From the NCBI RefSeq assembly GCF_002887735.1, contig NZ_PKQP01000003.1:372001-436000 (forward strand): a stretch of DNA of 64,000 nucleotides, written 5' to 3'. How positions within the stretch are numbered: position 1 is the stretch's first letter; the number at the start of each line of letters is the position of its first letter. Positions 12,127 through 52,742 of this stretch are shown piece after piece. The notes beneath the pieces were generated by a model. The model was given only the letters and a program-made list of their open reading frames with translations, was not told the origin of the DNA and did not search any database. Source of the DNA: Stenotrophomonas bentonitica (lineage in GTDB: Bacteria; Pseudomonadota; Gammaproteobacteria; Xanthomonadales; Xanthomonadaceae). A program made the translations under genes and the position numbers.

Positions 12127-12184
12127 GCCACCCCATGGGTGGCTGCGGTCCCAAAGATGGCAGCCACCCATGGGGTGGCTCTAC
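12127..12184. repeat. paired GTAG REP forming a 20-bp-stem hairpin
   Basis: Two copies of the unit face each other: 12127-12146 and 12160-12179 are perfect reverse complements (GCCACCCCATGGGTGGCTGC). Twelve bases of loop separate them. CTAC at 12181-12184 is the GTAG head read on the minus strand. The element separates convergent hemF and the DUF421 gene, so it probably ends both transcripts. The TAG of the GTAG head is itself the stop codon of the DUF421 gene. Confidence 0.85.
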
Positions 12185-12657
12185 GCCTTCTTCGGCACGA
12201 TCGTGATGTGGCCGTTGATCTCCAGCACCGCCAGGGCGACGTCATCGATGGTCAGGCACCCCTGCTGACGCAGCGCGGCGTCCAGGTCGGACGGGGTAAC
12301 CAGCTCGCGCTTGAGCACCGAATCGAGCACCTTGCCATCGCGCGCGATCAGCACCGGCTCGCCTTCGACCAGCGATTCGATCCGCCGGCTGCGCGTGCTG
12401 AGCCAGCCCACGCCGTAGTTGATCGAGATCAGCGTCGCCGCCAGCAGCAGGCCGCCGCCCAGGGAGGTGTCCTGGCCCAGCAGGGCGTTCTGCACCGCGT
12501 TGCCGAGCAACACGATCAGCAGCACGTCGAACGGGGTGATCTGGCCCAGCGCGCGCTTGCCGGACAGCCGGACCATGCCCAGGACCACCACGTACACCAC
12601 CACCGCGCGCAGGATGAATTCCCACCACGGCATGGCCAATGCAAACAGGTCGCTCAT
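12181..12657 (-). CDS. DUF421 / YetF-type membrane protein
   Basis: A 158-residue protein with two or three N-terminal membrane spans (about residues 8-75) and a small C-terminal YetF-like domain. Family motifs include GKRALGQITPFDVLLIVLLG near residues 28-47 and INYGVGWLSTRSRRIESLVE. The function of the family is unknown. The start ATG at 12657 has GGAAAGG upstream. The ORF is open further upstream into the sX13 region, but that part is not coding in character. The stop codon TAG is supplied by the abutting REP element. Confidence 0.9.
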   Translation of the reverse strand: MSDLFALAMPWWEFILRAVVVYVVVLGMVRLSGKRALGQITPFDVLLIVLLGNAVQNALLGQDTSLGGGLLLAATLISINYGVGWLSTRSRRIESLVEGEPVLIARDGKVLDSVLKRELVTPSDLDAALRQQGCLTIDDVALAVLEINGHITIVPKKA

Positions 12658-12752
12658 TGCCTTTCCCCGGACTGGTCCAGCCAGCATGGGCCGGCACCCG
12701 CTGCGAGGCAATGGCCGGGCGGCGCGGAGGGGCTGTTTTCGGCCCCACAAAT

Positions 12753-12870
12753 AAAAAGCCCCGCCAACCAGGGGGAGGTTAGCGGGGCCGGGGAACGGGC
12801 GCTTGGGGAGGAGCCCCCGTTCCGAGATCTGCTCCAGGGGATGGGAGAGATCCACAACAGGCATTGCGCC
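12753..12870 (-). ncRNA. sX13: sX13-like small regulatory RNA
   Basis: On the minus strand downstream of polA the sequence folds into a chain of stem-loops whose loops are C-rich. One stem pairs 12826-12835 with 12844-12852 (loop CAUCCCCU), a second pairs 12792-12799 with 12816-12823 (loop with CUCCUCCCCA), and the last pairs 12758-12769 with 12777-12788 (loop UCCCCC) and is followed by UUUUU at 12757-12753, a Rho-independent terminator. Xanthomonas sX13 is about 115 nt, lies beside polA, and has three stem-loops exposing 4C/5C motifs that regulate virulence and motility mRNAs. The 5' end is approximate; a small hairpin at 12857-12873 may or may not belong to the RNA. Confidence 0.85.
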
Positions 12871-12879
12871 TGTCGAGGT

Positions 12880-12906
12880 CTATCAAAGCACTCCGAACAT
12901 TGATAG
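12880..12906. promoter_or_regulatory. inverted repeat at the presumed sX13 promoter
   Basis: CTATCA at 12880-12885 and TGATAG at 12901-12906 are perfect 6-base inverted repeats with 15 bases between them. Read on the minus strand, TGATAG at 12885-12880 is a fair -10 for a transcript beginning near 12873. No good -35 is seen, as would suit an activator-dependent promoter. The region 12907-13015 up to the polA stop shows no gene. Confidence 0.4.
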
Positions 12907-13015
12907 TTCGTGAAGGGGCCCAATTAATCCGCCCCTCTTCCCGGAAACATTCATCCAACAGTCAGATTATCGCGGCGCAATGAACCAATTCAGCCTTTTG
13001 ACTGTGATTCAGGCC

Positions 13016-15787
13016 TCAATGTGCCTCATCCCAGTTATCACCGACGCCGGCATCCACCACCAGCGGTACCCGCAGTTCGGCCGCTGACGACATCAATTCA
13101 ACGACTTTCAAACGCAAGGTATCGAGGAAACTGCTTTCGGTTTCAAAGACCAGTTCATCGTGTACCTGCAGAATCATCTTGGCCTGGTCGCTGTGGTCGA
13201 GCAGCCAGCTGTCCACCTTCACCATGGCGCGCTTGATGATGTCGGCCGCCGTGCCCTGCATGGGGGCGTTGATGGCGGCGCGTTCCGCCCCGGCACGCAG
13301 GCCCTGGTTGCGGGCGTTGATGTCGTTCAGGTACAGGCGACGGCCGAACAGGGTCTCCACGTAGCCCTGGTCACGGGCCTGCTGGCGCATCCGTTCCATG
13401 AAATCACGCACGCCGGGGTAGCGGCTGAAGTACAGCGCCACGTAATCCTGGGCCTGGCCGCGGTCGATGCCCAGGTTGCGGGCCAGCCCGAACGCACTCA
13501 TGCCGTACATCAGGCCGAAGTTGATCGCCTTGGCGGCCCGGCGTTCGTTGGAGGTGACCTCCTCCAGGCTGCGGCTGAAGACTTCGGCCGCGGTCGCCCG
13601 GTGCACGTCCACGCCCTGCTCGAAGGCCCGCACCAGGCCGGGGTCTTCGGAGAGGTGGGCCATGATCCGCAGTTCGATCTGCGAGTAATCGCAGGCCAGG
13701 ATCTTGCGGCCCGGCGGGGCGACGAAGGCGCGGCGGATGCGGCGGCCGTCCTCGGTGCGGATCGGGATGTTCTGCAGGTTCGGGTCGGACGAGGACAGCC
13801 GGCCGGTGGCGGCGCCGGACTGGTGGTAGCTGGTGTGTACCCGCCCGGTGTCCTGGTTGATCATCTCCGGCAGCTTGTCGGTGTAGGTGCTGCGCAGCTT
13901 GGCCAGCCCGCGGTACTCCAGGATCACCCGCGGCAGTTCATGCTGCTCGGCGATCGCCTCCAGCGCCTCTTCGTTGGTGCTGGGCTGGCCCTTGGGGGTC
14001 TTCACCAGTGCCGGCAGCTGCAGTTCGTCGAACAGCACGGCCTGCAGCTGCTTGGGCGAATCCAGGTTGAAGGTGCGCCCGGCCAGCTCGGTGGCCTTCT
14101 GCTGGGCAGCCAGCATGCGCGAGCCCAGGTCCTGGCTCTGCCGGCGCAGTTCGGCCATGTCGATGTGCACGCCATTGGCTTCGATGCGGGTCAGCACCGG
14201 CACCAGCGGCATCTCGATGTCGCGGTAGACGCTGTCCAGCGAGGGCGTGGCCTGTAGTTGTGGCTGCAGGGCGTGGTGCAGGCGCAGGGTCACGTCGGCA
14301 TCTTCGGCGGCGTAGCGGCAGGCTTCGTCCAGGCCCACCTGCGAGAACGAGATCTGTTTGGCACCCTTGCCGGCCACCTCCTCGAACTTGATCGTGGTGT
14401 AGCCCAGGTAGCGCATCGCCAGCGAGTCCATGTCATGGCGCGTGGCGGTGGAATTGAGCACGAAGCTCTCCAGCATGGTGTCGTCGTGGTACCCCTGCAG
14501 GTTCACGCCGTGGCGGCGCAGCACGTGCAGGTCGTACTTGCCGTGCTGGCCAAGCTTCTTCCTGGTGGGGTCTTCCAGGGCAGGGCGCAGCGCTGCCAGC
14601 ACCTGCTCGCGCGGCAGCTGGGCCGGCGCACCCGGGTAATCATGGCCGACCGGGATGTAGGCCGCCCGGCCCGGCTCGACCGCCAGGCTGATGCCGACCA
14701 GGTTGGCGCGCATGGCGTCCAGCGCGTCGGTCTCGGTATCGAAGGAGATCAGCTCGGCCGTGGCCAGGCGCTGCACCCAGGCGTCCAGCTGTTCAGTGGT
14801 CAGCACCATCTCGTACTCACCGGGGGCGGAGAGCGCCGGGTCGACCGGCACCACCGCCTCCTCCGCCGTGCCGCGGGCGTAGCCGGCCGCGGTGCCACGC
14901 AGGCTGACCGGGGCATCGCTGGCGGCGGCGGGGGCCGGCACCGGGCCGCCCAGCTCCTTGAGGGCCTGGGTGAAACCGTAGCGCAGGTACAGCTCGCTCA
15001 GCGAGGGCACATCCGGCTCGCGCAGCGGCAGCGTCTGCGGCGTCACCTCCAGGGGCACGTCGGTGCGGATCGTGACCAGCTCGCGGTTGAGCGGCAGGCG
15101 CTCCAGCGCCGCGCGCAGGTTTTCGCCGATCTTGCCCTTCATGGTCGGGGCCGCGGCGATCACGCCGTCCAGGTGCTGGTACTCGGCCAGCCACTTGGCA
15201 GCGGTCTTGGGGCCGCACTTTTCCACACCCGGCACGTTGTCCACCGCGTCGCCCATCAGCGCCAGCAGGTCGACGATCTGGTCGGCACGCACGCCGAACT
15301 TCTCCATCACCGCCGCGTCCGAATCCATGCGGCTGCCGGTCATGGTGTTGACCAGCTCGATGCCCGGGCGGACCAACTGGGCGAAGTCCTTGTCACCGGT
15401 GGAAATGGTGACCTGCAGGCCATCGCGGTGGCCCTGCAGGGCCAGCGTGCCGATCACATCATCGGCTTCCACGCCGGGGATGCGCAGGATGCTCAGGCCC
15501 AGCGCTTCGACGATGCGGCACATCGGCTCGATCTGCGGGCGCAGGTCGTCGGGCATCGGCGGGCGGTTGGCCTTGTAGTCGGCGTACAGGTCGTCACGGA
15601 AGGTCTTGCCGGGCGCATCGACCACGAAAGCGACGTACTCGGGGCGCTCCTTCAGGGTGGCGCGCAGCATGTTGACCACACCGAACAACGCGCCGGTGGG
15701 TTCACCGTGTGCGTTGGTCAGCGGCGGAAGCGCGTGGAACGCGCGATACAGGTAACTGGACCCGTCAATCAGGACTAATCGGCTCAT
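13016..15787 (-). CDS. polA: DNA polymerase I
   Basis: A 923-residue three-domain enzyme. Residues 1-300 are the 5' nuclease (LIDGSSYLYRAFHALPPLTN, then GVEADDVIGTLA). The middle domain is the 3'-5' proofreading exonuclease, with the metal-binding DTETD intact (SFDTETDALDAM). The C-terminal polymerase has motif A (YSQIELRIMAHLS), motif B (RRAAKAINFGLMYGMSAFG) and motif C (LQVHDELVFE). It fills gaps and removes RNA primers in replication and repair. The length matches E. coli (928). It is divergent from a small lipoprotein gene. An sX13-like RNA lies downstream, as in Xanthomonas. Confidence 0.98.
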   Translation of the reverse strand: MSRLVLIDGSSYLYRAFHALPPLTNAHGEPTGALFGVVNMLRATLKERPEYVAFVVDAPGKTFRDDLYADYKANRPPMPDDLRPQIEPMCRIVEALGLSILRIPGVEADDVIGTLALQGHRDGLQVTISTGDKDFAQLVRPGIELVNTMTGSRMDSDAAVMEKFGVRADQIVDLLALMGDAVDNVPGVEKCGPKTAAKWLAEYQHLDGVIAAAPTMKGKIGENLRAALERLPLNRELVTIRTDVPLEVTPQTLPLREPDVPSLSELYLRYGFTQALKELGGPVPAPAAASDAPVSLRGTAAGYARGTAEEAVVPVDPALSAPGEYEMVLTTEQLDAWVQRLATAELISFDTETDALDAMRANLVGISLAVEPGRAAYIPVGHDYPGAPAQLPREQVLAALRPALEDPTRKKLGQHGKYDLHVLRRHGVNLQGYHDDTMLESFVLNSTATRHDMDSLAMRYLGYTTIKFEEVAGKGAKQISFSQVGLDEACRYAAEDADVTLRLHHALQPQLQATPSLDSVYRDIEMPLVPVLTRIEANGVHIDMAELRRQSQDLGSRMLAAQQKATELAGRTFNLDSPKQLQAVLFDELQLPALVKTPKGQPSTNEEALEAIAEQHELPRVILEYRGLAKLRSTYTDKLPEMINQDTGRVHTSYHQSGAATGRLSSSDPNLQNIPIRTEDGRRIRRAFVAPPGRKILACDYSQIELRIMAHLSEDPGLVRAFEQGVDVHRATAAEVFSRSLEEVTSNERRAAKAINFGLMYGMSAFGLARNLGIDRGQAQDYVALYFSRYPGVRDFMERMRQQARDQGYVETLFGRRLYLNDINARNQGLRAGAERAAINAPMQGTAADIIKRAMVKVDSWLLDHSDQAKMILQVHDELVFETESSFLDTLRLKVVELMSSAAELRVPLVVDAGVGDNWDEAH

Positions 15788-52627: not shown

Positions 52628-52742
52628 CGCGTCCCCTTGGGGAGTAGCCGGATTCCTGCTGCAGGAATCGCCCGCATCAACATACTCGGCCAGTGCGCCG
52701 TGGTGCGGGCAACCATCATGGTTGGCGAGACCAGCGGTCCGC
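52628..52742 (+). promoter_or_regulatory. yybP-ykoY manganese riboswitch
   Basis: The leader of mntP contains the conserved landmarks of this riboswitch: CCCCTTGGGGAGTAGCCG at 52633-52650, then CATCAACATACTCGG at 52675-52689, then GGCGAGACC at 52724-52732. An internal stem GATTCCTGC-TGCAGGAATC sits between the first two. It binds Mn2+ and in E. coli turns on mntP at the translation or transcription level. About 70 bases separate its end from the mntP ATG, room for an expression platform (paired GGTCCGC / GCGGTCC around 52735-52770). Confidence 0.93.

Follow-up and report, generated by a model that had tools for sequence, protein, structure and literature searches.

The window, that is, the whole stretch of 64,000 nucleotides of Stenotrophomonas bentonitica DNA that was analysed, carries a small RNA locus with C-rich loops downstream of the DNA polymerase I gene, followed by a DUF421/YetF-type gene whose start lies ~95 bases past the U-tract of the RNA on the same strand. 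The features of the locus are as follows.

13016..15787, minus strand: polA, DNA polymerase I (Pfam DNA_pol_A, 6e-160)
12904..12909, minus strand: -35-like GAACTA, a putative sigma-E-type remnant (consensus GAACTT), 16 nt before the -10-like element
12898..12914, minus strand: upstream block TTCACGAACTATCAATG, similar in most loci of the family (locus comparison)
12883..12887, minus strand: -10-like TTTGA (sigma-E consensus TCTGA), within TTTGATAG; GAACTA-N16-TTTGA scores 9/11
12880..12906, no strand assigned: inverted repeat CTATCA/TGATAG, overlapping both promoter elements, unconserved (2/88 loci)
12752..12877, minus strand: sX13 RNA including the 5' hairpin, predicted transcript of ~125 nt (match to model R3, described below, E 3.8e-17; fold z -7.2)
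12752..12865, minus strand: match to Rfam RF02232 (sX13), model positions 1-115, the whole model (122.5 bits)
12855..12875, minus strand: 5' hairpin with one arm upstream of the annotated start, absent from RF02232 (covariation, RNAalifold, fold)
12825..12853, minus strand: stem-loop 1, loop 12836-12843 (CAUCCCCU) (RF02232 match, fold)
12792..12823, minus strand: stem-loop 2, loop 12804-12811 (CCUCCCCA) (RF02232 match, fold)
12757..12789, minus strand: stem-loop 3, the intrinsic terminator, with a 13-pair stem, loop 12770-12776 (UCCCCCU), then the U-tract (fold)
12181..12657, minus strand: DUF421/YetF-type gene, a neighbour outside the RNA (Pfam PF04239, 5.3e-16)

The sequence-only reading had proposed an sX13-like RNA here and had named the Rfam sX13 model as a check. 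In cmscan, RF02232 matched the minus strand at 12752-12865 with 122.5 bits (E 4.1e-23), well above the gathering score of 50, which confirmed the identity. The gathering scan of the window returned RF02232 and RF00080 only, and the RF02232 match was the single one in the source genome. The position downstream of polA was also as described: polA lies on the same strand, with 138 bases from its stop codon to 12877. The three stem-loops with the loops CAUCCCCU, CCUCCCCA and UCCCCCU and the U-tract terminator were found on the minus strand at 12752-12865, which folded at -60.0 kcal/mol against a mean of -40.3 kcal/mol for dinucleotide shuffles (z -5.8; 0/200 shuffles were as good). Across 28 rows of the family, loop 1 kept UCCCCU, loop 2 kept UCCCC and loop 3 kept three C without any variation. 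We concluded that the locus is an sX13 small RNA gene, a known regulator of virulence and motility in Xanthomonas. The identification is correct and already known, because Schmidtke et al. (2013) described sX13 in Stenotrophomonas maltophilia, always downstream of polA (PMC3771888).

The annotated start at 12865 falls in the loop of the hairpin at 12855-12875, and the 5' arm of this hairpin lies upstream of it. When 12 upstream bases were included, the window RNA folded 12 kcal/mol deeper, with a z-score of -7.2. Conservation of the hairpin was measured among 90 Xanthomonadales loci, from which L038 (its orientation failed, and model R1 later found a copy in it) and L090 (a weak match) were excluded for the hairpin, promoter and repeat counts, leaving 88. 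The window's family, represented by 28 rows, had 96.4% paired cells and 7/9 double-changed pairs, while the slid control, with the partner moved by 1-3 columns, gave 24-58% pairing. Twenty more distant rows (alignment A2, without L086), 19 of them from other families of the order and one being L089, a divergent member of the window's own family, gave 93.0% paired cells and 6/8 double-changed pairs, with 33-50% in the slid control. RNAalifold predicted the hairpin unprompted in both alignments. A third alignment (A3) of 68 rows, which was fitted to a hairpin-containing model, leans toward the structure of that model and contains two doubtful rows (L090 and the second L080 match), gave 96.9% paired cells and 8/9 double-changed pairs.

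Of the 299 genomes of the order, 146 had an RF02232 match at E<=1e-3, and 84 of these were over the cut-off. polA was present in 81 of the 90 order stretches and engB in none of them. One genome, G225, carried two sX13 copies on two contigs (L049 and L050; 85.2 and 74 bits); polA was absent from both fetched stretches, and the sequence upstream of L050 differed.

R2, a four-hairpin model built from 64 Xanthomonadales rows, was run against 274 genomes of the class. It gave 42 matches at E<=0.01, three of them in the window's own family, and 232 genomes were without a match. The fetched flanks of the 27 best loci outside the order contained polA in 17 cases, engB (yihA) in 16, either gene in 22 and neither in five, two of which sit at a contig end. 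Of the 17 polA-bearing loci, 16 have the gene upstream in the same orientation as the RNA, and in L112 it is turned. The reverse approach, starting from polA, used 60 stretches downstream of this gene, taken non-randomly from the nearer part of a similarity-ordered polA list with rows skipped by hand; 27 had a same-strand R2 match at E<=0.01, 32 had none, and L130 had two matches on the other strand. Tandem sX13-like copies were seen in several loci, four in G467 (L099) and two each in L089, L130, L131 and L140, the last with a third weak copy (E 0.053). One of the G467 copies matched the ErsA model with 37.1 bits.

A pattern scan of named genomes, which used promoter words and a loop word and no neighbour information, returned at least 118 stretches. 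The 80 that were listed came from Ectothiorhodospira, Thioalkalivibrio, Halomonas, Steroidobacteraceae, Dechloromonas, Thiobacillus, Gallionellaceae, Nitrosomonadaceae, Methylophilaceae and Burkholderiales, together with many metagenome bins, two of which are titled Nitrospira and Gemmatimonadetes. Both polA and engB were found in 21 of these 80, polA only in 4, engB only in 41 and neither in 14. R2 gave 54 matches at E<=0.01 in 52 of them, and Rfam assigned 14 of 17 pattern stretches to the anti-hemB family, RF02837. Across the same 80 of at least 118 stretches (L186-L265), engB was convergent to the RNA in 62 and polA was present in 25, and engB, being the commoner of the two here, may be the older or more constant neighbour.

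Model R3 was then built from 67 rows outside the order, some of the named ones titled just Proteobacteria or Gammaproteobacteria. Against the 64-kb window, its single match at E<=1 was the sX13 locus at 12752-12877 (E 3.8e-17), a reciprocal test that is partly circular because R2 gathered most of the R3 rows. The window locus shows both marks of the proposed polA/engB-linked family, a (partly circular) R3 match and an adjacent polA. Together with the covariation, these comparisons suggest an overlooked 5' hairpin and a much wider polA/engB-linked family of stress-type small RNAs.

The sigma-E consensus is GAACTT-N15-17-TCTGA/TCTAA, and it was scored without any RNA model. Among 21 distant loci of the order, a group labelled as other families that includes L089 from a genome of the window's own family, 18 reached 9/11, compared with 2.3% of shuffles. 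In the window's family only 6 of 57 loci did so (shuffles 3.8%). Among the 60 polA stretches, a site of 10/11 or better on the sense strand was present in 14 of the 27 loci that have a same-strand R2 match, and in one of the other 33; this sole locus, L160, had a weak R2 match (E 0.043). In 12 of these 14, 3-7 nt separate the end of the site from the R2 match; in L131 the site ends at the start of the match, and in L151 ~115 nt ahead of it. Opposite-strand sites of this type numbered two in L130, one just before a copy and the other beyond both copies, and one each in L170 and L171.

We also scored the promoters with a matrix whose 33 rows, selected from outside the order, hold 31 distinct sites, since G337 and G538 were entered twice. 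They comprise 19 of the 27 polA-stretch matches and 14 of the 27 class loci, all with a site visible near the start. The score of 33/33 within the matrix is thus by selection, because the rows were chosen for a visible site. With L086 and L089 left out, all 19 promoters of other families of the order exceeded the 99th percentile of the null, as did 24 of 56 in the window's family. The matrix scores thus formed a gradient, and they were low in rows of the window's genus and of the Xanthomonas-like genus. The window promoter scored 4.8 (null 95%, 3.6; null 99%, 7.8), and 9/11 by consensus.

RpoE was found in all 16 genomes of the window's genus that were searched. Upstream of rpoE, 15 of the 16 carried TGAACTTTT-N16-GTCTCAT and the 16th GGAACTTCT-N16-GTCTCAA. 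RpoE with an ordinary consensus is thus present, while the sX13 promoter has probably drifted. The promoter in this genus appears to have eroded from the putative sigma-E consensus toward a TATA-like -10, as seen in sister loci, e.g. L020. This erosion would explain the lack of a good -35 that the sequence-only reading had remarked on. That remark holds for sigma-70: a sigma-70 promoter for sX13 was sought by consensus in 12500-13100, and 0 promoter-like sites of this type were found.

The upstream block TTCACGAACYATCNATG (12898-12914), which recurs in similar form in most of the family's sX13 promoters and includes the TTCAC part, was considered as a site of a wider regulon and rejected, with one exact copy in the genome; the genome scan found two more copies with 2 mismatches, and the backward control gave 1.

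As the sigma-E sites of relatives end 3-7 nt before the hairpin model, transcription would be expected to start at the base of the 5' hairpin. We infer that the sX13 RNA probably starts ~10 nt upstream of the annotated 5' end, and its 5' side is likely longer than first drawn from the sequence. The published sX13 is a 115-nt RNA in Xanthomonas, with a 5' region that is called unstructured and that was cut by RNase T1 in vitro (PMC3771888). If the same form were made here, the RNA would start at 12865, and the upstream arm would be untranscribed or cut off by processing within the hairpin loop. The exact placement of the annotated start in the loop would fit the cleavage of a longer precursor. 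However, from the end of the -10-like element it is 17 nt to 12865, more than a start there would normally allow, and 5 nt to the model start; the sigma-E site of relatives mostly lies at the corresponding distance of 3-7 nt from the hairpin model; and the upstream and downstream arms covary, which is not expected from selection on DNA alone. We therefore regard the published form as unlikely for this locus.

A longer RNA with its own 5' hairpin would have parallels in two other small RNAs. ErsA is a 132-nt, sigma-22-dependent transcript (PMC5819304, PMC7565897), longer than its Rfam model of 116 positions, and in G459 the R2 start and the end of the U-tract lie ~130 nt apart. The anti-hemB RNA of Burkholderia cenocepacia, ncS04, has a length of 105 nt by dRNA-seq starts and RACE-confirmed 3' ends (PMC5688073), against 81 positions in the anti-hemB model. 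Transcripts that exceed their Rfam models in this way fit an extra 5' hairpin. At the window locus the hairpin would cap the RNA within a few bases of the first nucleotide. An sX13 with a 14-nt 5' truncation still complements (PMC3771888), so that the hairpin would be dispensable for complementing activity, and its role is probably in stability or processing rather than in pairing.

The relation of sX13 to these RNAs was then considered. The window locus (L001) gave no match at E<=1 to the models of ErsA (RF01719), anti-hemB (RF02837) or Spot 42 (RF00021), and any link must thus run through intermediates. Such intermediates were found: the 20 class-level loci searched gave sub-threshold matches to sX13, anti-hemB, ar14 and Pseudomon-1/ErsA, and L169, downstream of polA, passed the anti-hemB gathering score. 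RF01719 was over its cut-off in one of the 274 class genomes, G459, with 121 bits and 103 bases downstream of the polA match, and this ErsA was matched by R2 (E 5.4e-4) and R3 (E 1.1e-5).

The sX13 of Xanthomonas shares with the window locus its sequence, three C-rich stem-loops, the terminator and the place downstream of polA (PMC3771888), and differs in that the published and Rfam forms are without the 5' hairpin. ErsA/Pseudomon-1 resembles sX13 in its position downstream of polA (G459), its 5' hairpin and its C-rich terminator loop, and its promoter, GAACTT-N17-TCATA, is of sigma-E type as in the sX13 relatives. It differs in that an open, U-rich region takes the place of stem-loop 1 (PMC5819304) and in needing Hfq (PMC7264166), whereas sX13 does not (PMC3771888). 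The loci related to anti-hemB of betaproteobacteria have the same promoter, a 5' hairpin, a CUCCCU loop and a convergent engB downstream, but most of them lack polA in the fetched stretch. Spot 42 of E. coli has the same layout of polA, small RNA and convergent engB/yihA, a likeness of the two loci that has already been discussed (PMC3771888). It was the top match in its 5-kb region, though a weak one (R2 E 0.079, R3 E 0.0029), and it has no C-rich loops and depends on Hfq (PMC3771888). For ar14 (RF02344) of alphaproteobacteria, L075 scored 45.1 bits (E 3e-5) and the window locus 28.8 bits (E 0.13); matches at sX13-family loci were below the gathering score of 58.8 in the rows seen. The window locus also gave a sub-threshold match to Atu_C7 (RF02501; 30.6 bits, E 0.002, gathering score 45), an alphaproteobacterial small RNA by its title.

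C-rich loops and GC-rich terminators easily score against each other, and C-rich hairpin RNAs may have arisen or settled repeatedly beside polA and engB, in which case sX13, ErsA and anti-hemB would not be one family. The missing ErsA and anti-hemB matches at the window locus and the U-rich region that replaces stem-loop 1 in ErsA (PMC5819304) are consistent with such convergence. It would not readily account for four hairpins in the same order, for a promoter at a fixed distance that is contained in no RNA model, for loci matched by two or more Rfam models at once, or for polA/engB neighbours, which lie outside every model and pattern and were found at 22 of 27 loci and at 66 of the 80 listed among at least 118 stretches. 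We consider independent origins improbable, about as much so as the published 5' end.

Common descent would mean that sX13 goes back to a small RNA ancestor that lay next to polA and engB and was under the control of the envelope-stress sigma factor (RpoE/AlgU), with ErsA and the anti-hemB RNA as its other branches. In its fullest form, one ancestral polA-engB locus with a sigma-E promoter toward engB and a 5' hairpin would have given rise to anti-hemB in betaproteobacteria, ErsA in Pseudomonas, sX13 in Xanthomonadales and Spot 42 in enterobacteria, where the C-rich loops were lost and a new promoter was gained, with tandem duplications in several lineages; we offer this scheme tentatively, as somewhat short of an even chance. 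In Xanthomonas, salt and a temperature of 37 C raise the level of sX13, and H2O2 does not (PMC3771888), which would fit envelope stress and proves nothing. The ncS04 RNA showed no change in the stress conditions of Table 2 of its report (PMC5688073), which counts against the stress reading.

That either the palindrome around the start or the repeat CTATCA/TGATAG is a protein operator in the DNA appears very improbable, far more so than convergence. Both inverted repeats overlap the promoter and the start, and CTATCA-N15-TGATAG is indeed present, with a single occurrence in the window (12880-12906) and none in 100 shuffles, as the sequence-only reading had pointed out in suggesting an operator. 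That suggestion did not hold, as the repeat was unconserved and found in 2 of 88 related loci, the window locus and L022. As for the palindrome, the arms of the hairpin vary in sequence while the pairing is kept, unlike a site read by a protein, which argues for an RNA element and against a DNA operator.

The least credible alternative is that the RNA is a leader acting in cis on the DUF421 gene, or that it is small and coding. In favour of this, the start of the DUF421 gene lies ~95 nt past the U-tract in the same orientation, there is an ATG at 12864, and Spot 42 carries the small ORF spfP. However, a strong terminator separates the RNA from the gene, the DUF421 match was absent in stretches L002-L007, and AATG was present in 10 of 88 loci, on which count a small protein or a long N-terminus of the DUF421 product from ATG 12864 was rejected.

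Overall, we think it likely that the sX13 gene at this locus specifies a ~125-nt RNA of four hairpins and descended from a sigma-E-driven small RNA beside polA/engB. Within this reading we are most confident of the 5' hairpin, then of a wide family linked to polA/engB, then of a sigma-E origin of the promoter, then of common descent with ErsA and anti-hemB, and least of the link to Spot 42. The product would be a free-standing RNA transcribed on the polA strand. By analogy with Xanthomonas, the C-rich loops of its two inner hairpins and of the terminator hairpin may pair with G-rich stretches near the starts of target mRNAs, and the pairing may lower translation; there, the loops of sX13 pair with G-rich motifs near start codons and lower translation without Hfq (PMC3771888).

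The hfq gene of the source genome has GGGG at +9. We set this aside as proof of a conserved target, because the motif sits in codons that we take to be widely conserved.

sX13 has been stated to be "exclusively found" in Xanthomonadaceae as then defined, and the same report closes by asking whether the polA loci of other bacteria encode such small RNAs (PMC3771888). If the wider reading is true, this question gets a direct answer, and sX13 would be one branch of an old envelope-stress small RNA family that extends beyond one bacterial family. Studies of ErsA, sX13 and anti-hemB could then inform one another, and testable predictions follow on the true 5' end and the stress control of sX13. The Rfam entries RF02232, RF01719, RF02837, RF02344 and RF00021 show no clan, and under the one-ancestor reading four of these clanless families, perhaps five with ar14, would form one superfamily. 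Our literature search found no paper covering both sX13 and ErsA, and across six related RNA names it found one co-mentioned pair, neither member of which was sX13.

The other Rfam match in the window was a manganese riboswitch (RF00080) at 52633-52723 on the plus strand, with 46.3 bits against a gathering score of 45. It is an ordinary one, located upstream of an ORF which, by its sequence, presumably encodes a protein resembling the manganese exporter MntP.
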